DNA of 64,000 nucleotides from Acholoe squamosa (Eukaryota > Annelida > Polychaeta > Phyllodocida > Polynoidae). The notes under the pieces were generated by a model. That model was not told the origin of the DNA, did no database searches, and saw only the letters and a list, made by a program, of their open reading frames with translations. The position numbers and the translations under genes were made by a program. Shown piece by piece: positions 4,146 through 63,320 of this stretch. How positions within the stretch are numbered: the first letter of the stretch is position 1; each line of letters begins with the position of its first letter. The DNA lies in NCBI GenBank assembly GCA_949317995.1, contig OX439039.1:77544002-77608001 (forward strand), given 5' to 3'.

Positions 4146-4472
4146 CACCACAACCACCTTAATCTGTCGGCTGAAGTGCGATGACGAACATTTATATTTA
4201 TTATATTTATAATTTTCCCTTGTACCTGCACCCGTGCAGGTACAAGGGAAAATTAAATCAGGCATAATGAGCGTTGGATATGATCTATATCATCCCATTA
4301 ACAGCCCCCTAAAGAAATTATTACTCATTTAACCTATTCACGTCCTCATCTTACAATTATGTTATCGCATTGCAGGACAGAATGAAACAGATGTATAAGT
4401 TATCTCGCTACCAGGGAATGATAAACCGGTAATAACGATGATAGTAATGAAGATAACAGAGATGATAATATA

Positions 4473-5971
4473 CCCAGCAAATTGTCGTGACTCCTCGTCA
4501 ACCTGTGTGAAGTGGCTTACACATGTCGCTAGATGGAACACGACGTCGCTATAGCACAAGATCACCAGGAATAGCAATGGTGGTGATCACATGGCCTCAC
4601 CTCAGATGACGAGGATGGTGATCACTCAGACTCACCAGGGATGGCAACGCGGGTGATCACTAACCTCGCTAGATGAAACACGCACCTCGTCATAGCACAT
4701 GTTCACCAGGGATGGCGAGGATCGTGATCACTCATCCTCACCAGGGATGGCGACATGAGTGATCACTCATCCTCACCAGGGATGGCGACATGAGTGATCA
4801 CTCACTTCGCTAGATGAGACGCACACCACGTCATAATACACATTCACCACGGATAGCAAGGATTGTGATCAGTCACTTCGCTAGATAAAACGCGTACCTC
4901 GTGATAGCACAGGTTCACCACAGAGGGTGAGGATCTTGATCACCCACACTCACCAGGGATGGCGACACGAGTGATCACTCACCTCGCTAGATGAAACGCG
5001 CACCACGTCATAGCGCAGGTTCACCATGGATGGCGAGAGTGGTGATCACTCAGACTCACCAGGGATGGCGACGCTGGTGATCACTCACCTTGTTAGATGA
5101 AAAGCTCATGATCATCGACATTGGTAATCATGCAGCCTCACATCTGCCAGATCAAAGTATGTTTTGCCAGAGAAGGTATTGCCATATGTATCTTCCCTCT
5201 AACCACAGACAAGGTGTTCATGTTGATATTCCCCTATGTATTTTTCCTGTAACCAGAGAAAAGGTGTTTATGGATAGTTGCTTTCATTTTAGAGATACCT
5301 CTATCTAAATTCAATTGATATTCTCTCTATATAATCTTGTTTGATTCAACTCTGAAGTATTACATGGAAATCAGTGTGAAACAAAGCACATTTGATACGT
5401 ATGGGACTTATACTTCATGCCCACACTTCCTAGATAGGCTACATGTTGAACAGTGGTGCTGTCTCAACAACTTTGGCAATGGTGGTGATAAGTTGCCACT
5501 GTGAGTGAGAGTGAGTGACAGATGATGCAATCCTCAGAGAGCATTGACTTGGAGTGACACAAATTCACGTATTGAGTGAGACCAATGTTGACAATGGTGG
5601 TGATAAGTCGCCATTTTGAGAGAAGATTAACAAGGAGTGATACACACTCACGCAGTGAGTGAGAGCCATGTGGCAATGCAGGTGAAAAGTTGCCATTCTG
5701 ACTGAGAGTTGACAGGCAGTGGCACATACTCATGCAGTGAGTTAGATCCATTTTGGCGATGGTGGTGATAAGTTACCATGCTTTGTGAGGGATGACAAGG
5801 GGTGGCACATACTCACGCAGTGAGTGAGATCATGTTGGCAACTGTTGTGATAAATCGCCATGCCATGTGAGACTGACACACAGTGGCGAAAGATGACACA
5901 GTGAGTTATCACTCAGAAAGGAGTCACCATTGATGACCAATCATGGCGACAGATAACGACAATTTGCTGGG
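4473..5971 (+). mobile_element. Non-autonomous TIR element, CCCAGCAAATTGTCG family, copy 1
   Basis: The ends are CCCAGCAAATTGTCGTGA and the inverted GACAATTTGCTGGG, flanked by TA on both sides. The sister repeat at 6389-6556 lacks the insertion, which fixes the boundaries and the TA duplication. The left third (about 4490-5090) is an array of modules with 'tcgctagatga', 'caccagggatggcga' and repeated GTGATCAC palindromes. The right third (about 5460-5960) is a different array with 'gtgataagttgcca' and 'gcagtgagtgaga'. The middle is unique. No transposase is present. The subterminal arrays may be transposase-binding sites, by inference. A second copy is at 57189-58899. Confidence 0.88.
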
Positions 5972-6179
5972 TATGAACAGTGGTAATATAAATGATCATA
6001 TCACAGACACATGAGTTTGGTGGGTTACTGACCTTGGGGCTATCAGCACCATACATGCCTTTATTAAAACAACTATAATAATTAGTTGACAATAAGCATA
6101 GTCAGTAAAATGCATAATATAATAACAATAATACAGTCATAACAATAGTAATAACAATAGTAATAACAATAGTAAAATT

Positions 6180-6388
6180 TAAAATTCCAGGGAACACCGA
6201 GCGTGGTGTTACCTGTACAGGTGAAAACGAGCCAATTGGCCGTTACATTGAAAACTCCCCCTTATATACTGGAGGAGTGTTTACCATGACGTCATGCTAT
6301 GACATCATAGATACCAATGCGCACAGAAAGTAGTCCCTAACCGTTCGTGGCTAATTATATATATATACACGAGTGTATATAGTTCCAT
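6180..6388 (-). repeat. DIRS split repeat A2
   Basis: Nearly identical to 13601-13809 in the same orientation. It contains 'atgacgtcatgctatgacat', a CRE-like palindrome with a second related copy, and a short TATA-rich tract. Its left side joins B2 and its right side joins B1 at 'ccata/agttatc'. Confidence 0.85.
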
Positions 6389-6556
6389 AAGTTATCTCGC
6401 TACCAGGGAATGATAAACCGGTAATAACGATGATAGTAATGAAGATAACAGAGATGATAATATATGAACAGTGGTAATATAAATGATCATATCACAGACA
6501 CATGAGTTTGGTGGGTTACTGACCTTGGGGCTATCAGCACAATACATGCCAAACAC
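6389..6556 (-). repeat. DIRS split repeat B1 (uninterrupted copy)
   Basis: Matches 4399-4472 joined to 5974-6058, which is B2 without its inserted TIR element. This gives a natural empty site for the element at 4473-5971 and shows a 2-bp TA target duplication. Confidence 0.88.
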
Positions 6557-6594
6557 CTAAACACGCCAAACACATGTGAACAAACACATACCAA

Positions 6595-7526
6595 TCAACA
6601 ATGCAATTGAGATTGGCAAAGTCTATCTAATTCTAAAAGTTCACTTTTATGATTATGTAAATATGTAAAAACAGAATTAGATTTCCAATTTACCTTCTTC
6701 TTAATAGACTCTATACTAAGTCCTGCGTCCTTTAACATAGTAGCCCCACCATGCCTAAGTGAGTGAGTGGAGATTGAACCTCTGATACCAGCACGTAAAG
6801 ATAAAGATTTCAACTTCGAATTAATATATTGGTACTGTAGAGGAACACCATTAATTTTAAATAAAAAATCACTCACAGCCCTACCTGTGCACAATTTTTC
6901 TAATCCTCTACATGGACATAACAGTGAGGTATCATCCCTACATAAGTATATGTTAAAAGCATGGCCACCAAGCTGATCAGTCTTAGAAGTATTAATGCTA
7001 AGACTAGCATAACTTTTAAATATTTTAACATCACCTACCCTTAGTGTATGGGGGGAAGATACAACATGCCCTATCCTGAGGACACCTCTATAACATAACA
7101 GAATAGCTAACCAGAACTTCAAGTCAGCCCTGTTGGAGAGATCCAAATATGATCTAATACATAACATTTCTTTTGGACTCAAAGGATGAATAACCCTAGT
7201 TGGAACAGCATAATTCCTACCAATACCATCTAACACCTTTTTTAGCATGAAATTACTGCTATGGTCTAGGCCACCCCTAAGCTTTGATGATACCAAATGG
7301 ACGATAAATAATTCCTTACAGAAGAAGGTCTCATATGTTCGGATAAGTATACTGCATATGTAGCAGCCTGTGAGGGAGAACAAGGGAAATAAGTTAAATT
7401 GAATTCATTACAAAATTTTTTATACCTGTTAAGCTGTTGTCTCCTTGTTCTCCTCGTATTCTCTGATACACCCTTCGATAAAAGACACTCTTTTCTTTTT
7501 TGTAACCTTTTCCATTCTGGAATCAA
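6595..7526 (-). pseudogene. Tyrosine recombinase region of the DIRS element
   Basis: This region would encode the integrase of the element, which joins a circular DNA intermediate to the genome. Near the end of the translation is a HSLRHGG box (the H-x-x-R signature of tyrosine recombinases), followed about 30 residues later by a segment with tyrosines such as VFTYLHN that fits the catalytic Tyr. The upstream part has a basic, helix-rich N-terminal domain (RRTRRQQLNRYKKFC) typical of phage-integrase SAM-like domains. It overlaps the end of the RNase H region in another frame, a layout used by this family. It belongs to a broken element. Confidence 0.8.
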
Positions 7527-9049
7527 AGCAACACATATTATTATGCTGAAGAGTGTGAATGCATTTCTTCACAATACCTTTATAAGGTAACCTAGACAAT
7601 TGGTCAGCTAGAACATTATCCTCAGATTTGATATAAGTGGCATAAATTTCAACATTGTTGAGGAAACACAACCAAAATATTTCCCTTAACCACTCCATAC
7701 ATAGTTTATTTTTTGATCTACCGGTATTTATCATGGCTAAAACCTGCATATTGTCCGTTATACAACATATTCTTTTACTTTTACAGCCAGATATCCAACG
7801 CCTAAGACTCATAAGAAGAGGATATAACTCATATACATTTATATTTCTATGGTGATTTTCCAAATTATCCAGTATTGGTGATTGAGTAAAGTGACCACTA
7901 CCTAAATTGAATTTATCGTAAGAAGTCCAGTCACCATATAAATAATCTTTACCCATCCAAGCTCCGAAGCCTTTAATGGATGAATCTGAGTACATAGGTG
8001 TATCGACCAGATCATTTAAGATTAAACTTTTACCATTAAAAGTATTGCAGAATCTCAACCACCATTCCATATCATTCCTTGTACACTCAGAAATTTTTAT
8101 AATACCTTTAGGCCTTGCTCTGGCACAAAGATCAAAAATTCTGCGACTAAACGTTCTCCCACCTCTAACAACCTGGGAGCAGAAAGACATTAAACCACCG
8201 ATCCTCTCTAGATTCTTCTTAGAAATAAATTTCTTACTAACGTTCTCTAATAAGAGATTTTCCATTTTCTCAACCTTTTCAATAGGCAAAGACAGTTCCA
8301 ACTTAACTGAATCTATATTAATGCCTAAGAATTTACAAACTTGAGATGGGTCGGTCACCTTTTCTTTGGATACTACAAAGCCCATGTAGGCCATACATTC
8401 CATCAATAAATTCCTCTGCCTAAGACATTCAGCATAAGAATCTGCCAAAATTATAAAATCATCTAGATAATTTACAATTCTTTTTACACCGTAGAATTTT
8501 GCCACCCCCACAATAAAATATATGGAGCACATTTCAGACCAAAAGTTAACCTGTTGCTCACATAATAATTCTCACCATGCCCAAAATCCCATCTGAAACC
8601 TTGCATGGTCGTGTGAGGTGCATACACATTAATAGACCTATACGCTGACTTCAAGTCTACCACGCTCATGAAATCGTTCCTATCCAACTGGGCAGTCACC
8701 GTGCTGATATTATTATAAGAAAATGTTGAGCTAGTGGTATCCATAAAATTATTAATAGAAATTTTATCAGGCATGCTGCAGTCCGTTATGGGTCTCAATT
8801 TACCATTTGATTTCTCGACACCCCCTAAAGAATGTATACAACGGGGCTTAATTTTTGTTTTTGAGACCAGACCAGCAGAAATTTCTTCTAATAAAATACC
8901 ACACATCTCATTATAAAATTTTCCTTCCAAAATAGACTTATAGTTTTTACAGTCATAAGAAGTACTACAAGAGGGGTCAACAATTTTAAAACCTTGAACA
9001 AAGCCCTGCCATAGAAAATTTGCTTCTACATCATTAATACTAATGACTA
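7429..9049 (-). pseudogene. Reverse transcriptase and RNase H region of the DIRS element
   Basis: The RT fingers motif GKLRPITDCS, the motif A segment VVDLKSAYRSI, the LTFGLKCAPY segment and the active-site box YLDDFIIL are all visible. Downstream, MYSDSSIKGFGAWM and ITDNMQVLAMINTGRS resemble the RNase H Asp-containing strands, with the final segment near SEDNVLADQLSRLP. This D-S-x-x-G RNase H and the RT type match DIRS/Ngaro elements. The upstream edge abuts the foldback insertion at 9050. The region is broken, with about one small break. Confidence 0.83.
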
Positions 9050-9254
9050 CAGTGGCCCACAAGGGTCAAATTGAAGTTGAAGCAAAGAGTTGACTTTCAC
9101 AAAAAAAGTTAAAGTCCAAAACCAAAATCAATGTTCAAAGTCAATTTCATTTCATTGCTGTCAAACTGTCAAGGTGTCAACTCATGAAAACCAACTTGTG
9201 ACAGGTATCTTTTAGCATTGCATGGTGCACTCTATGTCTTTCTATATGAACAAA

Positions 9255-9712
9255 GTTTATACCAGCAACTACTGGGTAGCTATCGGTTTCCTGACACAAT
9301 AACTGATGGTTCCACACAAAGTAGTTGCTGGTTCCAGCATCCTGTAACTGATGGTTCCCACCCACTGTAACTGCGGTTCCACACTTATCCGCTACTGGCA
9401 CTGGATCCCATACCAGGTAGCTGCTGGTTCCCACACCAGAACTTGGTGGTTCCCATGCACATTAGTTGCTGTTTCCTGTACCCAGTACATGCTGGTTCCC
9501 ACATACAGTAGCTACTGCTTCCCACATCCAGCAGCTGCTGGTTCCCATATAAACTGGTTCCTAACCCAAGTAGCTGCTGGATCCCACACCCTTGCTGGTT
9601 CTTGCACCCAGTACCTGCTGGCTTCCACATAGAGTAGCTGGTAGTGGTTCCCACATCCATTAGGTGCTGGTTCCTGCACCCACTACCTGCTGGTTCCCAA
9701 ATACAGTGCAAT
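9255..9712. repeat. Foldback wing array, left arm
   Basis: Tandem degenerate units built on 'agctgctggttcccacac' with a period of about 30 bp. The inverted counterpart is at 11335-11900. ORFs here on both strands are by-products of the repeat. Confidence 0.85.
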
Positions 9713-10445
9713 TGGGTCAGGATAGGTCAAATTAGGTCAAATATGTGAAAATAGGTCATATTGGTGAAAAATAGGTCTATTCAGGTAGTATAGGTCAGAT
9801 TATGTCAAATATGGTGAAAAGAGGTCAAATTGGTCAAAAGCAGGTCAATTAGGGAAGGATAGGACAAATTAGAGTAAATATGGTGAAACTAGGTCAAATT
9901 GGTCAAAAGTAAGTAAATAAGGTCAGGATAGGTGAAATTAAGTCAAATACGGTGAAAATAGGTCTAATTGGTAAAAAGTAGGTCAATAAGGGTAGGATAG
10001 GTCAAATTAGGTAAAATATTGTGGAAACCAGTCAAATTGGTCAGAAATAGGTCAATAAGGTCAAAGTAGGTCAAATATGGTCAGAATAGGTCGAATTGGT
10101 CAAAAACAGGTCAATTACGGTAGGATAGGCCAAATAAGGTCAAATGTGGTGAAAACTGGACAAATTGGCCAAAAGTAGGTCAATTAGGTCAGGATGGGTC
10201 AATTAAGGTCATATATAGTGAAAATATGTCAGATTGATCAAAAGTAGGTTAATTAGGTCCAATAAGGTCAGGATAGATCAAATATGGTTGAAATAGATCA
10301 AATTTGTCAAAAGTAGGTCAATTTCGTCAAAGTGGGTCAAAGTAGGTTAGGATAGGTGAAGTAAGGTCAAATATGCTGGAAATAGGTAAAATTTATCAAA
10401 AGTAGGTCAATTAGGTCAAATTATGTCCAAATTTGTCAAAATAAG
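9713..10445. repeat. Foldback inner arm, AGGTCA-rich
   Basis: Degenerate repeats of 'aggtcaaattggtcaaaagt'. By eye there are roughly two dozen exact AGGTCA hexamers on the plus strand. Some are spaced as direct repeats, for example 9724-9739 (4-bp spacer), 10177-10191 and 10404-10418 (3-bp spacer). Confidence 0.88.
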
Positions 10446-10449
10446 ATCG

Positions 10450-11334
10450 GATATGACTATTTTTGACCAATCTAGCTATATTTGACCTAATTTTACCTAT
10501 TCTAACCTACTTTGTCCTAATAGACCTACTTTTGACTGATTTGACCTATTTTAACATATTTGACCTATCCTTACTTCTTTTGAACAATTTGACCTATTTT
10601 AACGATTATTTGACCTATCTTAGCCTAATTTGTCCTACTGACCTACTTTTGACCAATTTGACCTACTTTCACCATATATGACCTGATTTAACCTCATTAA
10701 CCTACCTTTTCCCAATTTGACCTATTTCCGCTATATTTAACCTTATTTGACCTAGCTGAACCTAGTTTGACCTTATTGACCTACTTTTGACCAATTTGAC
10801 CTACTTTTACCATATTTGACCTGATTTCACCTAAGTGGCCTACCTTTCACCAATTTGACCTATTTTCGGTAGATTTGACCTTATTTGACCTATCCTTACC
10901 TACTCTGACATAATTCGACCTTAATTGAACAAATTTTGACCAATTTGACTCATTTGAACCCACTTGGACCTAATTACCCTAATTTTGACCAATGTGATCT
11001 ATTCTTACTACTGTTGACCTAATTTGATAGAATTTGACCTGATTGACCCAATTTCAACCAATTTGACATAATTTATCCTAGTTTGACCTCATTTGATGCA
11101 TTTGACCTACTTTTAGCCAATTTGATCTGATTTGTCTAATTTTGACCTAATAGGCTATTCTGACCTAATTTCATCCAATATGACCTACTTGGAACCAATT
11201 TGACCTATTTTGACAAATTTTAGCTGTCTTGACTGCTTATGACCTAGTTTCACCCAACTTTCCCAATTTGCCCATTTTTGACCAATATGACCTTTTCATC
11301 CAGAATTTACCCAGATCACCCTTTTGCTACTAGG
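10450..11334. repeat. Foldback inner arm, inverted (TGACCT-rich)
   Basis: The inverse of the left inner arm: 'gacctacttttgaccaattt' type units, so TGACCT appears on the plus strand. The two inner arms face each other across a centre near 10450. Confidence 0.88.
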
Positions 11335-11900
11335 TATGGGAACCTGTAGCTACTCTATATCGGAATCAGGAGCTACTGGATATGGGAACAAGTAGCTACT
11401 GTGTGGGAACCAACAGCTACTGTTTTAAGAACTAGCAACTACCTGATGTGGGAACCAGCAGGCACTGTATTTGGGAACCAGCAGGTAGTGGGTGCAGGAA
11501 CCAGCACCTAATGGATGTGGGAACCACTACCAGCTACTCTATGAGGAAGCCAGCAGGTACTGGGTGCAAGAACCAGCAAGGGTGTGGGATCCGGCAGCTA
11601 CTTGGGTTAGGAACCAGTTTATATGGGAACCAGCAGCTACTGGATGTGGGAAGCAGTAGCTACTGTATGTGGGAACCAGGATGTACTGGGTACAGGAACC
11701 AGCAACTAATGTGTATGGTAACTACCAAGTGCTGGGTGTGGGAACCAGCAGCTACTTGGTATGGGATCCAGTACCAGTAGCTGATTGGTGTGGAACCACC
11801 AGTTACAGTGGGTGGGAACCACCAGTTACAGGATGCTGGAACCAGCAGCTACTTGGTGTGGAATCATCAGTTATTGTGTGAGGGAACCGATAGCTACCCA
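11335..11900. repeat. Foldback wing array, right arm
   Basis: Units of 'gtgggaaccagcagctact' type, inverted relative to 9255-9712. The array is about 100 bp longer than the left wing, so the arms have lost or gained units independently. Confidence 0.85.
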
Positions 11901-12118
11901 GTAGTTGCTGGTATAGACATATAGAAAGACATAGAGTGCACCATGCAATACTAAAAGATACCTGTCACAAGTTGGTTTGCATGAGTTGACACATTGACAG
12001 CTTGACAGCAACGAAATGAAATTGACTTTGAACATTGATTTTGGTTTTGGACTTTAACTTTTTTTGTGAAAGTCAACTCTTTGCTCCAACTTCAATTTGA
12101 CCCTTTTGGGCCACTGTA

Positions 12119-13578
12119 AATGACACCTTTCTGAGTCAAAAAGGGGGCTACCCTACATGGTAAAATTTGAGCTCTCTCACCAGCAATGTAATGAACACAA
12201 GTACATACACCATTTATACAGTTGTCATATACCCTGATGCTGGGCAAATCTGCAACACTAACCGTAAAAAGAGGTTCACTACCAACCTGTATTAGACTAT
12301 TACAAGTAACATCTATATCATTTCCTAAAGAATTAAATTCTTGGAAAATACTTTGTTCTGTTACGGATTCAGTGAAAAGAATACAATCCTTAACCCTCTC
12401 CGTATGATTCACCTCCTGTACTGGAGTTTGTGAAGGCAAGTCGACATCTACCACACCTACCATAACTTGATCAGGCACCAAACAAAAATCATTACAAGCT
12501 ATGGGACATCGACCACCTACAGTTTCCTATTCATTCCTGGATTTTTGGCATTCAGTTTTACCATGTCCAGAAGAACTGCAAGCACTGCAAACATGCCTAT
12601 ACTTGCAGGGGTCCCTTACACAACCTTCTGCTCTATTAAAAGCATAGCAAGAATTGTTTGAGATTTTTTGTTTGATACCATTCCTAGTTTTGGTGGCGTA
12701 TGCCTTCTGTGCCTGAACAGTACCATCATATGATAAGTGTCTCAGAATGTCAGAATTGTCTATAATCCCAAAGGCCTCTATCCCCTCCTTGTTTGCCCTG
12801 GTCCTAACTGATTTATCGTATGCCAATAGGGCTGCTACTGTATACATTCTTGTACCAGCCTTTTCAACCAGAACTTGGAGATGTTTTAACATGCCTTCTA
12901 CATCACTGTTGTCTTTGTAATAATCTAAGACAAAATTCAAGTTGACCAACATCAACTTCTCAACGGTATCGATCTTTTCCCGTTTTTTCACATACATTTC
13001 ATGGTCAAACTCACCATATTTGGTACTGGTGTGAAGCTTGGATGTAGTGGAATCCACTGACACCCTCCTGAAGACGACCGAGGTCTGTGACGAGTAGAAA
13101 AGGATGATTTCGATCTCCGGCGACGACCACGATGCCCGACTTCGTCCCATTTCAAACCGTCGCTAAGGACGCTGGGGGACCGCTGCCTGGATACGCGCCT
13201 GCACCCTTGGAGATGTGACGTCATCGATCGTTGACAAACATTCGCACGTGCATGCTGCCACGCCCCCTCCATAGGCTTCGTCTCGTCTTTCTTGTCCTTT
13301 CCAGCCACCAGCTCCTGTAGCAAACCTTTGATATTACATAGTTCATCCTCTAACGACTCCAGCCTCTCCGTCTGGTCAATGAATTGGTCATCTTCTAACA
13401 CCCTAGCATGGTTTGGCGATGTAGATCTCCGATCTACACAAGACGAATCCAACTCACTCGCAAGTCCTAAATTGGCCGATTCTACCGTTTTCTTCGCCGA
13501 TTTGGCCGATTTCTTAGAAGCAGTAACCGCCTTGGCACTCTTAGTTGATTTTCTCCCCATCCTGGTTCGAAAAATCAC
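12119..13578 (-). pseudogene. Gag-like region of the DIRS element
   Basis: The first part is basic and Ser/Lys-rich (ASKKSAKSAKKTVESA), followed by a possible coiled-coil stretch. A later segment holds a cysteine/histidine cluster (CRDPCKYRHVC, then CSSSGHGKTEC spacing) that could bind nucleic acid. The position directly behind the A1 repeat fits a gag-like ORF1 of the Ngaro/DIRS group. The downstream side is cut by the foldback element ending at 12116. The sequence is broken, with about one small break. Confidence 0.65.
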
Positions 13579-13600
13579 ATATCAACCAAGAAAAACCGTT

Positions 13601-13809
13601 AAAATTCCAGGGAACACCCAGCGTGGTGTTACCTGTACAGGTGAAAACGAGCCAATTGGCCGTTACATTGAAAACTCCCCCTTATATACTGGAGGAGTGT
13701 TTACCATGACGTCATGCTATGACATCATAGATACCAATGCGCACAGAAAGTAGTCCCTAACCGTTCGCGGCTAATTATATATATATACACGAGTGTATAT
13801 AGTTCCATA
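13601..13809 (-). repeat. DIRS split repeat A1 (element 5' end)
   Basis: Direct repeat of 6180-6388 with about two differences. It lies just upstream of the gag-like region on the minus strand and so probably carries the promoter. The palindrome TGACGTCA could be an ATF/CREB-type site, by inference. Confidence 0.85.
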
Positions 13810-21128: not shown

Positions 21129-21520
21129 TTAAAGTTGCCCCCCTTCATACTGCCCTCACATCCACTTCGTCTATATTCCCTCACTCTGCCCTTATACCCA
21201 CTCACATACCCCCTCACACCCACTTACACATCCCGTCAACCTGCCCTCACATCCACTTGCATACCCCCTCACCCTGCCCTCACACTCACTTACATTGCCC
21301 TCACCCTGCCCTCACATTCACTTACATACCCCTCACCCTAACCTCACACCCACTTACATGATCCCCTAAACCTGCCCTCAATCCGACTTACATACCCGCT
21401 CACCCTGCCCTCACACCCACTTACTTACCCCCTCACCCTGCCCTCATACCCACTTACATAGCCCCTCACCCTGCCCTCACACCCCCCCCCCCTTGCCCTG
21501 CCCTTACACCTACTTACATT
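21129..21520. repeat. 33-bp minisatellite, left part (split by LINE)
   Basis: Degenerate units 'ccctgccctcacacccac' plus 'ttacataccccctca'. The array starts with the same lead-in, 'cagatcttgtc' and 'ttgccccc', as the array at 35017. Because the unit is a multiple of three, long Pro/Leu/Thr/His ORFs appear; they are not genes. Confidence 0.92.
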
Positions 21521-21527
21521 GGAAGAA

Positions 21528-22478
21528 ATGGGTAAAGATCCTAGAGATATAGTACATGGCAGTGGTTTCAAATTTGTATTGTTTAATGCACAAAGTTTAA
21601 AGGATAAATATAACTATGTGGCAAAAGAGTTTGTAGGGTTCGATGCTATTGGTATAACAGAAACCTGGTTAAAACCATCAACCCCGAGCAGTCAAATTAG
21701 TATTCATAACATGTCACTTTACAGAAATGATAGAAGGAGAGGGAAGAGAGGTGGAGTAGGCTGCTACGTGAGAGATGTATATGTACCATATCTAACTATT
21801 CTGAATGATCTAACAGTGGTGAATCGCAACATTGAAACACTATGTATATCACTTAAATACCCAGGACATAGAGAGAAAGTGATTGTTGTAGTATATAGAC
21901 CCCCAAAGGGTAAAGTATTGGAGTGCTATGATCAACTAAGATTAATTGTAAATGATATTGAATGTAGAGGAAAAGAGTTATGGATCATGGGTGATATGAA
22001 TGTCAATAGCCGCAGTCGAAATTGTATAAAATTTTTGAAGGATACTGGTCTCAAATATTATAGAACTGCCCAGACATACTACCATACTTATGGGAAATCG
22101 ACCTTCCATCATTATTATACCAACTGTGACTGTGTAATGGAGGTAGGTCTACTAAATGACATCTGTGGAGACCATGTACCTGTTTACCTAATTAGAAAAT
22201 TAGTGAAACCTGTTAAAAATCCAGTCAAAATTATCAGTACTAGGAACATGAAGTCTCTTAATAAAGAAAACTTCTGTAGGTTCATATCCAGTAGAGACTG
22301 GACGGATTGCATTGTGAATGATACAAACTCAGTTAATATATATGAAAAGGTTGTCAATTGTATTAAGTCGTACCTGGATGAATATCACCCTGTAATAAAA
22401 TTTAAAGTACAAGAGAATGACATATTTTTTGATGAAAGAGTTGGTAGAATGATTTCTAAAAAAAAAAAGACTTTTTAG
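21528..22478 (+). CDS. LINE endonuclease domain (APE type), first part of ORF2
   Basis: This would nick target DNA to prime reverse transcription. From the first ATG at 21528, the apurinic-endonuclease fold is visible: KFVLFNAQSL near the N-terminus (metal-binding Asn), AIGITETWL (catalytic Glu), VVVYRPP, LWIMGDMNVNS (Asp and Asn pair) and near the end ICGDHVPV, where the usual SDH triad is GDH. The reading frame closes right after an 11-base A run at 22458-22468. The linker and RT continue in the next frame, so a single inserted A (10 to 11) is the likely cause. A triplet TTG upstream is not needed as a start. Confidence 0.85.
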   Translation: MGKDPRDIVHGSGFKFVLFNAQSLKDKYNYVAKEFVGFDAIGITETWLKPSTPSSQISIHNMSLYRNDRRRGKRGGVGCYVRDVYVPYLTILNDLTVVNRNIETLCISLKYPGHREKVIVVVYRPPKGKVLECYDQLRLIVNDIECRGKELWIMGDMNVNSRSRNCIKFLKDTGLKYYRTAQTYYHTYGKSTFHHYYTNCDCVMEVGLLNDICGDHVPVYLIRKLVKPVKNPVKIISTRNMKSLNKENFCRFISSRDWTDCIVNDTNSVNIYEKVVNCIKSYLDEYHPVIKFKVQENDIFFDERVGRMISKKKKTF

Positions 22479-24360
22479 AAGGGCAAAACGCTGTATTACT
22501 GGTTATAGAAATGAGTTGTTGGACAGGGTAAAGGTACTAAAAAAGGCAATTAACCAACGCTTGGTATATAAGAAGCGTACTGTTATGCTACAATTACTTA
22601 ATAAATACAGAAAGGACCCAAAAAGATTTTGGAAAATATTAAAGCTGGTATGGCAAGGCAAGGCAACGACCCCGACAATGAACTTAGTGGATAAAGATGG
22701 TAATGTGGTTTTAATGGGTCAACTTGCCAACTATGTAAATGATTTTTATATTAATATTGGTAGTGATCTTGCTAGGGCGTTTACTATCCAGCCCTATCCT
22801 GATCTAGCACCTCAGTGTGAGAATATTATGACACTGAGAACCTGTACTATTGATGTATGTATTGACATATTAAAATCCATCGATGGGAGTAAGAACTCAT
22901 GTATTACAAATATACCTTGTAATATGGTAAAGGAATGTCTTTTAATAAAACCTGAGTTACTTGAAAATTTTATAAATAGATCCATTGCTGATGCTAAATT
23001 TCCAGACCTGTTGAAAATAAGTTATGTGGTACCATTACCCAAGGATGGGTTACTAAGTGATGTATCTAATTGGAGACCGATCACTATGACTAATGTTTTC
23101 TCTAAACTTATTGAGAAATGTGTACATCGACAGTTAATGAATTTCATTACAGAAAATAATATAATAAGTGGAAATCAATATGGTTTTATTCCTGGTAAAT
23201 CTACTGTTGATGCAACTTTTGGACTGATTCAATACTTGTTTGAAGCTAGAAATCGGAATGAATATTCAGTTATTTTGTTTTTGGACATAAAAAAGGTGTT
23301 TAATACTGTAAATCTAAATATAATGTTAAAGAAATTGAAATATATAAACTGTGATGATATGTGTCTGAAATGGTTTGAAAGTTTTCTATGTAATAGACTC
23401 CAATCAACAAGAGTTAATAACAAGTCTTCTGACACAAAGGTTATGGATTGTGGAGTAGCTCAGGGCACAGTACTGGGTCCATTGATGTTTAACCTGTATT
23501 TAAATTCTATAGTGTCAATTATTGAACACTGTCAATATTTCCTGTATGCGGATGATGTAGCATTGGTGGTAAATGGAAATGATGTTGAAATAATGTCAAG
23601 TCTATTACAGTCTGATGTCAATAGAATTGGTGAATGGTGTAAGACAAATATACTTACAGTTAATGTCAGGAAGACCAAATTATTATGGTGTCATTCGACA
23701 AGACAGTGTATTAACCCTATGGATATCTTTATGCAAGGTACTAAATTAACTGTTGTACAGAGTTTTTCATACCTTGGTGTCTTAATAGATAGTGGTTTAA
23801 CTTTTAAATCACATTGTAAAAAAGTAGATATGATGGGTACAACTAAGCTGAAACAATTGAGAAATATAGTGAAGTATGTTGATAGAGAAAATTCCCTGCG
23901 TATTTACAAACAAATGATTGTACCAACTTTAGAATATTACAGTTATATCCTAGATAGTGGACCCAAGACCATTGTAGACCATATTGATGTAATCCAAAAT
24001 CACTGCCTTAGGGCCTGTTTAAAGGTAAGAAATGCCCAAGATATGCATGTAGCTGATTTACTACAGCAGTGTAAGGTGGACGCCCTAGACATAAGGAGAA
24101 GAAAGTCCTTGACATGCCTGATGTATAAATATGCACAAGATATTGATCATATACTGGTACCTCCTAGGTTATTAAGAGGACATGATAAGAAGAAGATAAA
24201 AGTGAATAGGCCAGTCTATGAATCATACAGGGTTAGTCCGCTATATAGAGGTAACCGTCTTTGGGAAACTCTGACAAGTGATATACAACAGAAGGATACT
24301 CTAAACAACTTTAAAGCATGTTTAAAAGGAGAGGTATTAAATACCTTGGGCAATGTCTGA
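22468..24360 (+). CDS. LINE reverse transcriptase, second part of ORF2
   Basis: This is the target-primed reverse transcriptase. The frame is open from the A run (KRLFRRAKRC linker). Motifs in order: SNWRPITMTNVFSKLIEK, GFIPGKSTVDATF, motif A ILFLDIKKVFNTVN near 23275, GVAQGTVLGPLMFNLYLN, and the catalytic box YADD at 23545-23556, then the thumb and a C-terminal region with LGVLIDSGLTFKSH and MIVPTLEYYSYI typical of CR1/Jockey elements. The catalytic first Asp of motif A is present, but the normally conserved second Asp (AFD) is Asn (VFN). The ORF ends in TGA at 24358-24360. Confidence 0.88.
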   Translation, partial: RLFRRAKRCITGYRNELLDRVKVLKKAINQRLVYKKRTVMLQLLNKYRKDPKRFWKILKLVWQGKATTPTMNLVDKDGNVVLMGQLANYVNDFYINIGSDLARAFTIQPYPDLAPQCENIMTLRTCTIDVCIDILKSIDGSKNSCITNIPCNMVKECLLIKPELLENFINRSIADAKFPDLLKISYVVPLPKDGLLSDVSNWRPITMTNVFSKLIEKCVHRQLMNFITENNIISGNQYGFIPGKSTVDATFGLIQYLFEARNRNEYSVILFLDIKKVFNTVNLNIMLKKLKYINCDDMCLKWFESFLCNRLQSTRVNNKSSDTKVMDCGVAQGTVLGPLMFNLYLNSIVSIIEHCQYFLYADDVALVVNGNDVEIMSSLLQSDVNRIGEWCKTNILTVNVRKTKLLWCHSTRQCINPMDIFMQGTKLTVVQSFSYLGVLIDSGLTFKSHCKKVDMMGTTKLKQLRNIVKYVDRENSLRIYKQMIVPTLEYYSYILDSGPKTIVDHIDVIQNHCLRACLKVRNAQDMHVADLLQQCKVDALDIRRRKSLTCLMYKYAQDIDHILVPPRLLRGHDKKKIKVNRPVYESYRVSPLYRGNRLWETLTSDIQQKDTLNNFKACLKGEVLNTLGNV

Positions 24361-24553: not shown

Positions 24554-24845
24554 CATTCCCCCATCTTACCCTCGCACCCACTTACACACCCCCTCATCCT
24601 GCCCTCACACCCACTTACATACCCTCACCCTGCTCTCACACTCACCTACACCCCCATCACCCTGTCCTTACACCTACTTACATACCCCCCATCCTACCCT
24701 CGCACCCACTTACATATCCCCTCACCCTGCCCTCCCAACCACTTAGGTACCCCCTCACCCTGCCCTCACACCCACTTACACACCCCCTCTCTCTGCCACC
24801 ACACCCACTTACATAGCCCCTCACCCTGCCCTCACACCTACTTAC
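24554..24845. repeat. 33-bp minisatellite, right part
   Basis: Same unit as 21129-21520, continuing after the LINE. It runs directly into a tRNA-like sequence. Confidence 0.9.
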
Positions 24846-24869
24846 TTTTTCACCAACCTCTACATTGGT

Positions 24870-24946
24870 GGAGAAACCAGGACCCGAACCCGGGGCCCTC
24901 GAACTTCGAAGTGGCTGCTCAACCTATGAGCTACTTCCCCTGGCCT
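24870..24946 (-). mobile_element. tRNA-derived SINE head or tRNA pseudogene
   Basis: On the minus strand an A-box-like TAGCTCATAGGTTGAGC and a B-box-like GGGTTCGGGTCC are spaced as in a tRNA, and CCAGG/CCTGG can pair as part of an acceptor stem. The anticodon arm is not convincing and the body after the B box is short. More likely a SINE head than a working tRNA. Confidence 0.6.
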
Positions 24947-35016: not shown

Positions 35017-35995
35017 GATCTTGTCTCAGCTTTAAGTTGCCCCCCTACATCCTGCCCTCACATCCACTTCGTCTATATTCCCTCACTCTGCCCTGTCGTC
35101 CACTTACATACCCCCTCACCCTGGCCTTATACCTACTTACATACCCCTCGCCTTGCCCTCACACCAATGTCTATATCCCCTCACTCTGCCCTCACACCCA
35201 CTTACACACCCCGTCAACCTGCCCTCATATCCACTTGCATACCCCCCCACCCTGCCCTCACACTCACTTACATACCCCTCACCCTGCCCTCACATCCACT
35301 TACATACCCCTCACCCTAACCTCACACTCACTTACATACCCCTCGCCTTGCCCTCACACCAATGTCTATATCCCCTCACTATGCCCTCACACCCATTTGC
35401 ACACCCCCTCACCCTGCCCTCACACCCACTTACACACCCCATCAACCTGCCCTCACACCCACTTAATACTCCCTCACCCTGCCCTTATACCCACCTACAT
35501 ATCCCCCATCCTACCCTCACACCCACTTACATACCCCCTCACCCTGCCCTACCACCCACTTACATACCCCCTTACCCTGCCCTTATACCCACCTACATAT
35601 CCCCCATCCTACCCTCACACTCACTTACACACCCCCTCACTCTGCCCTCCCACCCACTTACATACCCCCTTACCCTGCCCTCACATCCACTCACGCACCC
35701 CTTCACTCTGCCCTCCCACCCACTTACATACCCCTCACCCTGCCCTCACATCCAGTTACATACCCCCTTAACCTGCCCTCACACCCACTCACGCACCCCT
35801 TCACTCTGCCCTCCCACCCACTTACATAACCCTCACCCTGCCCTCACATCCAGTTACATACCCCCTTCACCTGCCCTCTTACCCACTCACGCACCCCTTC
35901 ACTCTGCCCTCCCACCCACTTACATAATCCTCACCCTGCCCTCACATCCAGTTACATACCCCCTTAACCATACCCTCACACCCACTTAAGTTACA
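35017..35995. repeat. 33-bp minisatellite, second array
   Basis: Same unit and the same lead-in as 21129-21520 ('cagatcttgtctcagctt', 'ttgcccccct'). About thirty degenerate units. Long ORFs (125, 244 and 278 codons) of L-P-S-H-P-L-T-Y-P repeats run in overlapping frames and are repeat artefacts. Confidence 0.95.

Positions 35996-53277: not shown

Positions 53278-53316
<39 letters not shown>
53278..53316. repeat. (TA)n microsatellite
   Basis: About 19 TA units directly abutting the DIRS end fragment at 53317. Confidence 0.95.
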
Positions 53317-53318
<2 letters not shown>

Positions 53319-53672
53319 AACTATGTACACTCGTATATATATATAATTAGCCGCGGACGGTTAGGGTACTACTTGCAGAGCGCAGGAATATCTATGATGT
53401 CATGGTATGATGTCATAATAAACAGGTCACCAGTATATAAGGTGCAACTTTGAATCAACCGTCAGTTGGCAAATCTCACCTGTACAGGTAACACCACGCC
53501 AGGTGTTTCCTTGTTTTTAAATTTTAAAGTTTTACTATTGTTATTACTATTGTTCAATTGTACTGACTTATGGTTATTGTCAACTAATTATTATGGTTGT
53601 CTTTTTAATAAAGGCATGTATGGTGCTGATAGCCCCAAGGTCAGTAACCCACCAAACTCATGTGTCAGTGTT
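53317..53672 (+). mobile_element. Fossil end fragment of the DIRS element family
   Basis: Matches the A2-B2 side of the 4395-13809 element in inverse orientation: 'tataattagccgcg', 'acctgtacaggtaacaccac', 'tggtgctgatagccccaagg', 'cagtaacccaccaaactcat'. It holds A, the spacer and the start of B but no coding part. It is clearly more diverged than A1 and A2 are from each other, so it is an older remnant. Confidence 0.8.
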
Positions 53673-53759
53673 AGGTCATTATTATATACTATTTATTATA
53701 TTCATATGTACCGTACCATTCCATATTACATTCATTCATTATAACTGGTATATTCTTCC

Positions 53760-53760
<1 letters not shown>

Positions 53761-53810
<50 letters not shown>
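53761..53810. repeat. (TA)n microsatellite
   Basis: About 24 TA units. Confidence 0.95.
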
Positions 53811-57188: not shown

Positions 57189-58899
57189 CCCAGCAAATTG
57201 TCGTTATCTGTCGCCATGATTGGTCATCAATGGTGACTCCTTTTTGAGTGATAACTCACTGCGTCATCTTTCGCCACTGTGTGTCAGTCTCACATGGCAT
57301 GGCAATTTATCACAACAGTCACCAACATGATCTCACTCACTGCGTGAGTATGTGCCACCCCTTGTCATCCCTCACAAAGCATGGTGACTTATCACCACCG
57401 TTGCCAACATGGATCTAACTCACTGCCAGAGTATGTGCCACTGCCTGTCAACTCTCACTCAGAATGGCGGGTTATCACAAGCATCGCCAACATGGATCTG
57501 ACTCACTGCGTGATTATGTACCACTCTCGGTCAGCTCTCAATCAGAATGGCAGCTTATCACCACCATCGCCAACATGGATCTCACTCACTCCGTCAATAT
57601 GTGCCACTGCCTGTCAACTCTCACTCAGAATGGCGGCTTATCACAAGCATCGCCAAAATGGATCTGACTCACTGTGTGATTATGTACCACTCCCGTGCCA
57701 CTGGCATCAACTCTCACACAAAATGGTGACTTATCGCTACCATTGCCAACATTGGTCTCACTCAATGCGTGAATTTGTGTCACTCCAAGTCAATGCTCTC
57801 TGAGGATTGCATCATCTGTCACTCACTCTCACTCAGAATGGCAACTTCTCACCACCATTGCCAAAGTTGTTGAGACAGCACCACTGTTCAACATGTAGCC
57901 TATCTAAGAAGTGTGGGCATGAAGTATAAGTCCCATACTTATCAAATGTGCTTTGTTGCACACTGATTTCCATGTAATACTTCAGGGTTGAATCAAACAA
58001 GATTATATAGAGAAAATATCAATTGAATTTAGATAGAGGTATCTCTAAAATAAAAGCAACTATCCATAAACACCTTTTCTCTGGTTACAGGAAAAATACA
58101 TAAGGAAGTATCTACATGAACACCTTGTCTGTGGTTAGAGGGAAGATACATATGGCAATACCTTCTCTGGCAAAACATACATTGATCTGGCAGATGTGAG
58201 GCTGCATGATTACAAATGTCGATGATCATGAGCTTTTCATCTAACAAGATGAGTGATCACCAGCATCGCCATCACTGGTGAGTCTGAGTGATCACCACTC
58301 TCGCCATCCATGGTGAACCTGCGCTATGACGTGGTGCGCATTTCATCTAGCGAGGTGAGTGATCAACCGCCTTGCCATCCCTGGTGAGTGTGAGTCATCA
58401 CGATCCTCGCCAACCGTGGTGAATGTGCATTATGGCATGGTGTGCGTTTCATCTAGCGAGATGAATGATCACCTGAGTGACCATCCCCCGTGAGTGTGAG
58501 TGGTCACGATCCTTACCATCTGTGGTGAATGTGCGTTATGACGTGGTGTGCGTCTCATCTAGCGAAGTGAGTGATCACTCATGTCGCCATCCCTGGTGAG
58601 GATGAGTGATCACTCATGTCGCCATCCCTGGTGAGGATGAGTGATCACTCATGTCGCCATCCCTGGTGAACATGCACTATGACGAGGTGCGTGTTTCATC
58701 TAGCGAGGTGAGTGATCACCTGCGTCGCTATCCCTGGTGAGTCTGAGTGATCACCATCCTCGCCATCTGAGGTGAGGCCATGTGATCACCACCATTGCTA
58801 TTCCTGGTGATCTTGTGCTATAGTGACGTCGTGTTCCATCTAGCGACATGTGTGAGCCACTTCACACAGGTTGACGAGGAATCACGACAATTTGCTGGG
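57189..58899 (-). mobile_element. CCCAGCAAATTGTCG family TIR element, copy 2 (inverted)
   Basis: Ends CCCAGCAAATTGTCGTTATC and CACGACAATTTGCTGGG, flanked by AT on both sides. Array order and the unique centre mirror 4473-5971, so it lies in opposite orientation. It is 212 bp longer, mainly from additional array modules. A 72-codon frame in the centre (58029-58247) is open in both copies but shows no sign of selection. Confidence 0.88.
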
Positions 58900-62329: not shown

Positions 62330-63320
62330 CAATACATCTGTTCACTGCAAAGTGATACAATAGTTCACAATGATAGTATCACTGATATGAACAGGTTCAC
62401 AATGAATTGTTTGTTTGTAATTCTTTTATTTATACAGGCCAAATTGTCAATTGACAGTTCACAATGCAATGCCACCATATTTCACCATATGATGTTACCA
62501 CAGTTCACAATGCAATACCACCACAGTTCACAATATGCTGTCAAAACTGTGTCACCACAATTCACAATGTGGTGACATCAGAGTTCAAAATCAGGTGTCA
62601 ACACAGTTCACAATGTAATGTCACCACAGTTCACAATGAAATGACATGACATCACAGTTCACAATATAGTGTTCACAACAGTTCACAATGTTGTGATAGT
62701 TTATGGTCTGTTGCCAACACAGTTCACGATGTGTTGCCACCATAGTTTATGATGTTGTGTCAACACAGTTCACAATGTGTTGCCACCTCATGATGTGATG
62801 TCACCACAGTTCACAATGATTGTGTTGTCACTGCAGTTCACAATGTGTTGTCACTGCAATTCACAATGTAGTGTCAACACAGTTCACAATGTGGCATCAC
62901 CACAGTTCACAATATGATGTCACCACAGTTCAAGATGTAGTGTCAACACAGTTCACAATATGATGTCACCACAGTTCAAGATGTGATGTCACCACAGTTC
63001 ACAATGTGGTTCCCACAGTTCACAATGTGGTGTCACCACAGTTCACAATAGTATTACCGCCCACAGACCTGAACAGTTGGGAAATTTTTCAGGCCTTTAA
63101 TAACTTTGGAAAGAATGAGAGTTGAGCCAAAAGATTTCATATATAGTATCTAGGGAGGGCAATGGAGTACTGGTAATCTTAGTTCAAAGTAGAAATATTT
63201 TTTTGACCACAGTTCACAATGTAGTGTCACAACAGTTCACAATGCGATGTCACCTCTGTAGTTTGAAATGTTGCGTAATCAGAGTTCAGAAAGAGCAATG
63301 ATACTGTAGTTCACAATACA
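62330..63320. repeat. CACAGTTCACAATG minisatellite
   Basis: Units of about 22-24 bp, 'caccacagttcacaatgtg' plus 'gtgt' or 'atgt'. The best preserved part is about 62500-63050; an unrelated stretch (63060-63200) interrupts it. Confidence 0.92.

Follow-up and report, generated by a model that had tools for sequence, protein, structure and literature searches.

A hairpin of about 3 kb in the polynoid annelid Acholoe squamosa, composed almost entirely of repeats, raises two questions: which kind of transposase could move such an element, and how have its two arms come to match each other? The hairpin lies in a window of 64,000 nucleotides, the whole stretch of DNA that was analysed. Based on its ends and its target site, we propose, with a probability of roughly 0.7, that it is a non-autonomous, foldback-shaped DNA transposon of the little-studied IS3EU/GingerRoot type that is moved in trans by cut-and-paste. 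The superfamily, the supply of transposase in trans and the cut-and-paste movement are what we infer here, and membership in the group rests on the ends and the target site duplication (TSD) of one insertion.

Boundaries of the element and its host

The element occupies positions 9048-12118 (3,071 bp) as an inverted repeat with the termini TACAGTGGCCC...GGGCCACTGTA. An earlier note on this DNA had seen it inserted in a retroelement, and this was borne out, as a host with a tyrosine recombinase, a reverse transcriptase (RT) and direct end repeats flanks the hairpin on both sides:

6179..13809, minus strand: the host, a DIRS/Ngaro-like retroelement with a tyrosine recombinase, extending from one end repeat to the other and split by the hairpin
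6595-7404, minus strand: host integrase (Pfam Phage_integrase, 4.2e-11)
7429-8571 and 8484-9047, minus strand: host RT pieces (Pfam RVT_1, 3.7e-05 and 4.5e-07, the first of which does not reach the cut-off set by Pfam)
9042..9047, no strand: target site duplication AATGAC, left copy, identical to 12119-12124
12119..12124, no strand: target site duplication AATGAC, right copy, identical to 9042-9047
12125-13581, minus strand: host upstream ORF pieces, beyond the hairpin

The combination of an RT with a tyrosine recombinase, found through RVT_1 and Phage_integrase, is that of DIRS/Ngaro-like elements. The direct terminal repeats of the host (6179-6389 and 13599-13809, 211 bp) are 99% alike, which supports the youth that the earlier note had assigned to it, although its RT already runs in two frames, a frame break of its own besides the hairpin. 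A diverged relative of these terminal repeats was observed near 53311-53807. Additionally, the 40 bases that follow the host end repeat (6390-6429, after 6389) recur exactly at 4398-4437, shortly before another terminal-inverted-repeat (TIR) element beginning at 4473, and therefore that element may be nested in the tail of the retroelement.

The earlier note had set the end at CAGTGGCCC with a duplicated TA, which is off by two bases: TA forms the last two bases of each element end, and directly outside TA...TA stands AATGAC on both sides, a perfect 6-bp duplication once TA is counted as element (AATGAC-TA-CAGTGG...CCACTG-TA-AATGAC). Two 6-mers drawn at random from the window agreed in 71 of 200,000 draws, and in 94 of 200,000 by a second form of draw, these figures being per draw while a few boundary choices had been looked at. 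Because the insertion lies within coding sequence of the retroelement, an empty-site test could be applied to three models. Removing the element and one AATGAC yielded an open stretch of 249 codons across the join, while leaving one TA yielded 163 codons on one side and 127 on the other, out of frame with each other, and keeping all duplicated bases yielded 162 and 122 codons, again out of frame. Only the 6-bp model, among the three tried, thus leaves the host frame open across the site; this supports it without alone proving it, because the host has its own RT frame break and chance closure amounts to one in three. In this one insertion, the target duplication is best read as AATGAC and not as TA, and the boundary shifted by two bases points to a different transposase family. 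The intact duplication inside the host coding region also suggests that the hairpin is probably younger than the coding ancestor of the host element.

Two other assignments follow from ends drawn further inside, and both have to be weighed against this site. The former boundary would imply a foldback of Tc1/mariner type with CAGTGGCCC at its ends and a duplicated TA beside it, which is quite unlikely; CAGT ends are common in Tc1-like elements, and TA does stand on both sides of CAGTGGCCC...GGGCCACTG, but just inside the 6-bp repeat, so that the AATGAC beside it is left unexplained at the chance figures given above, and the TA model leaves the host frame broken. The long TIRs of direct repeats and palindromes described for the mariner-like Mcmar (PMC3169594) offer a structural parallel to such a foldback. 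A hAT-type element is less probable still, and we give it very little weight: CAG..CTG ends are usual in hAT elements, but the 8 bases outside CAG and CTG, AATGACTA and TAAATGAC, do not match, and the 6-bp duplication exists only with TA counted in the ends. Families of hAT with 5-, 6- and 7-bp TSDs are described in PMC12730594.

Layers of the arms and their different histories

Each arm is built in three layers, as the earlier note had announced: the outer TIR measures about 210 bp, the wing next to it has 23-bp repeats, and innermost lies an array of approximately 10-bp repeats. The layers can be delimited as follows:

9048..9258, plus strand: outer TIR, left, beginning with TACAGTGGCCC; 9048-9248 pairs with 11918-12118 (201 nt, 97%)
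9265..9708, plus strand: left wing, an array of 444 bp or about 19 lengths of a 23-bp unit (roughly CTGGTTCCCACACCCAGTAGCTG)
9710..10470, plus strand: left inner array, 761 bp, built on a unit of about 10 bp around AGGTCAAATT and showing a higher-order period of 69 bp
10471..11316, minus strand: inner array, right, the same unit of about 10 bp in opposite direction; 846 bp
11317..11912, minus strand: wing array, right, the 23-bp unit of the left wing; 596 bp, about 26 unit lengths
11918..12118, minus strand: outer TIR, right, ending with GGGCCACTGTA

The right wing exceeds the left by about 150 bp. The hairpin turns near 10470, where the inner unit switches direction: at one mismatch or fewer, the left arm has 38 forward copies of GGTCAAAT and a single reversed one, against counts of 39 and 0 in the right arm with the direction switched. 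The repeat period is 23 in the wings, and periods of 10, 20, 59 and 69 were found in the inner arrays. The 69-bp higher-order period is clear in the left inner array (identity 0.66 at lag 69), while the right one has its best lag at 59 (0.53, versus 0.49 at lag 69), and a tandem-repeat program also gives 69- and 138-bp periods over parts of the latter.

The motif GGTCAAATTG, which both TIRs contain, has 10 occurrences in the element and none in the remaining 60.9 kb of the window. On this count, the inner unit might have been amplified from part of the element end, and the array could then serve as a store of extra predicted transposase binding sites. Against this, whole-TIR alignments lent no support to an origin of the arrays in the outer TIR: 213 of 500 shuffles of the left TIR reached its score for the inner unit, and 402 of 500 shuffles did as well for the wing unit. 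Two annotations within the arrays were also set aside: an ARAGORN call of tRNA-Gly(ccc) at 11775-11853, which lies in the right wing array and has no Rfam match at the gathering score, is probably due to chance, and an AWS-domain match in an array ORF (11436-11777; E 0.034, 14.6 bits versus a cut-off of 23.3, 11 residues) was taken as chance. The CpG observed/expected ratio is 0.13 in the hairpin (9050-12116) versus 0.40 in the window, which may reflect only the make-up of the repeat units.

The earlier note had described nearly the entire 3.07 kb as one palindrome. A large inverted repeat does fill 9048-12118, with its TIR and wing blocks 94-97% alike, but the inner arrays mirror each other in direction alone. 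Inside the outer block, 9255-9373 pairs with 11800-11918 (119 nt, 94%) and 9436-9709 with 11462-11735 (274 nt, 97%), and aligning 9048-9709 to 12118-11462 with gaps gives 94.3%; the two arms disagree at 7 of the 201 outer-TIR positions and at 9 of the 274 in the long wing block. Pairs of inner-array blocks are 70-81% complementary (among the 25 longest of the 115 pairs listed). The predicted DNA fold has an energy of -1120, versus -332 to -358 for six dinucleotide shuffles, and 1140 of its 1260 predicted pairs span the hairpin centre.

Pieces of 40 bases were compared with their best ungapped match in their own arm and in the opposite arm. The wings reach a best identity of 0.923 across (mean, left pieces against the right wing), compared with 0.699 within the left and 0.748 within the right arm, and because the opposite arm is far closer than the own arm, the wings are position-by-position copies of each other. 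The inner arrays reach 0.785 across versus 0.808 within when taken from the left, and 0.746 versus 0.762 from the right; they are inverted in direction and not position-matched between the arms. The palindrome therefore has two histories, with the TIR and wing matched and the inner arrays not, which implies that the TIR and wing were copied recently or kept alike, while the inner arrays were turned over independently or came from different sources. Mechanistically, the outer ~660 bp of each arm could be kept alike by inter-arm copying, through template switching in gap repair or through gene conversion, while the 10-bp inner arrays could expand and contract by slippage in each arm independently.

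The same contrast bears on the suspicion of a false inverted duplication, as long palindromes are prone to misassembly. We regard an assembly artefact as extremely improbable, given that the arms differ at the sites counted above, the wings are unequal in length, the inner arrays are not copies of each other, and the 6-bp duplication flanks the whole element.

Search for a transposase and for relatives

No DDE transposase, which in an autonomous IS3EU/GingerRoot partner would be IS3/IS481-like, was found among the 23 window ORFs scanned with Pfam, 6 of which overlap the element's arrays; the window holds 156 stop-to-stop stretches of at least 70 codons. A search with the whole element (E up to 0.01) returned no second copy in the 64-kb window, and the end motif at one mismatch gave 6 matches there versus 4.3 expected, being exact only at the two ends. 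Outside the window, no relatives were obtained from a phage collection by distant blastn with the whole element, from viral contigs with the TIR pattern and the inner-array pattern, or from prokaryotic genome contigs with the TIR pattern, and 2 stretches of viral contigs matched the pattern of a host RT piece with none confirmed; the collections searched were of viruses and prokaryotes, so these misses say little about a eukaryote.

Many tandem arrays occur across the window and, together with its retroelement genes, give it a eukaryotic character. A second TIR element, CCCAGCAAATTGTCGT...ACGACAATTTGCTGGG, is present in two copies of opposite orientation (4473-5971 and 57189-58899; 88% alike over 1477 aligned positions), with TA/TA and AT/AT as flanks, and both copies carry 35-bp and 83-bp tandem arrays; array-carrying transposons are therefore not confined to the hairpin here. 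A 33-bp array (CCCTCACACCCACTTACATA...) lies at 21211-21484 and 24569-24845, flanking a LINE-like ORF pair (endonuclease 21462-22478, RT 22453-24360), and in a larger form at 35041-35988. Just past the array at 24569-24845, an Rfam tRNA match on the minus strand (24869-24940; 32.6 bits, cut-off 29), which has no ARAGORN call, could be a tRNA-derived repeat. Positions 62454-63253 hold an array of a different 23-bp unit (ACAGTTCACAATG...), equal in length to the wing unit and unlike it by eye.

Placement among known transposons and foldback elements

Non-autonomous TIR elements are usually mobilised in trans. A predicted DDE transposase, encoded elsewhere in the genome, would recognise the TACAGTGGCCC ends and excise the element, and its insertion by a 6-bp staggered cut would produce the AATGAC duplication in the RT region of the tyrosine-recombinase retroelement. 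The published signature of IS3EU is TA..TA ends with 6-bp TSDs, and GingerRoot has 6-bp TSDs with mostly TA..TA ends (PMC10045372). Because the hairpin has TA..TA termini (TACAGTGGCCC at 9048 and GGGCCACTGTA ending at 12118) and, in its one insertion, a 6-bp duplication, it most likely belongs to the IS3EU/GingerRoot group or to something very near, as judged from these sequence features. Its likeness to the group lies in these ends and this duplication (PMC10045372, PMC12730594), and its difference in the lack of a transposase and in foldback arms with two tandem arrays. Fungal IS3EU elements share the 6-bp TSDs, whereas their TAYGG..CCRTA ends, a motif stated for the Pucciniales families in the available text of PMC12730594 and not for the whole group, differ from the TACAGTGG ends seen here. 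Styx, which its authors tie to IS3EU, made new insertions in crosses with 6-bp TSDs, and its movement is thought to be non-replicative (PMC10853768).

It is unlikely that the element belongs instead to another or an undescribed superfamily with TA..TA ends and 6-bp TSDs. The ORF scan described above, which found no transposase, leaves room for this reading, and Polinton also yields 6-bp TSDs (PMC10045372). Against it, Polinton ends are AG..CT. The TSDs of Ginger1 and Ginger2 are 4-5 bp, and TA..TA with 6 bp is the very pattern stated for IS3EU/GingerRoot (PMC10045372). The case also illustrates that a two-base boundary error can shift a transposon's classification.

The hairpin is a real foldback transposon in its structure, with long tandem-repeat TIRs and arms that account for most of its length. 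Repeats of several lengths are also present in the FB arms of Drosophila. The earlier note knew of no foldback element with this organisation in two arrays, and the rarity this implies is overstated for layered arms, which are known in Tetris (PMC4079207) and Tm1 (PMC3169594). No description of two unrelated arrays in one arm was found for Tetris, Tm1 or Galileo in the portions of these sources and of PMC2775673 that were available. By title, no IS3EU foldback stood among the matches listed in a limited literature search without Repbase; the one paper in the literature searched that contains both terms is an oyster satellitome study, whose accessible part reports satellites CgiSat35 and CgiSat47 as similar to IS3EU and has foldback only once, in a reference title (PMC8268682). 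Tentatively, and with less confidence than in the placement itself, the hairpin might be the first foldback in the IS3EU/GingerRoot group, and its palindrome a composite one, in which the outer TIR and wing would have been recently copied between the arms and the inner 10-bp arrays not. If so, two half-elements would have been joined to form the foldback, or renewed copying would be limited to its outer ~660 bp. The matched outer arms set against unmatched inner arrays make foldback arm copying testable.

Layered tandem-repeat TIRs have precedents in other superfamilies, as Tetris, Tm1 and Galileo are placed in the Mutator-like and P superfamilies (PMC4079207, PMC3169594, PMC2775673). Tetris, a foldback of Drosophila virilis whose arms comprise flanking, tandem-repeat and inner domains, resembles the hairpin in being non-autonomous with a layered TIR (up to 1,735 bp), but differs in its 8-10-bp TSDs, ~220-bp repeats and separate middle domain, and its authors suggested Mutator (PMC4079207). 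Tm1 of root-knot nematodes, with four sequence domains and 13-15-bp repeats in its TIRs, shares the composite multi-domain TIR and short repeats unequal in number between the arms, but has 9-bp TSDs, a Phantom-like transposase and repeats of ~14 bp (PMC3169594). Galileo of Drosophila likewise has long, internally repetitive TIRs, but belongs to the P superfamily, with 7-bp TSDs and a middle segment (PMC2775673). Unrelated transposon lineages have probably acquired a foldback form on repeated occasions (PMC4079207, PMC3169594), and a foldback in IS3EU/GingerRoot, if true, would extend this origin to another transposase lineage.
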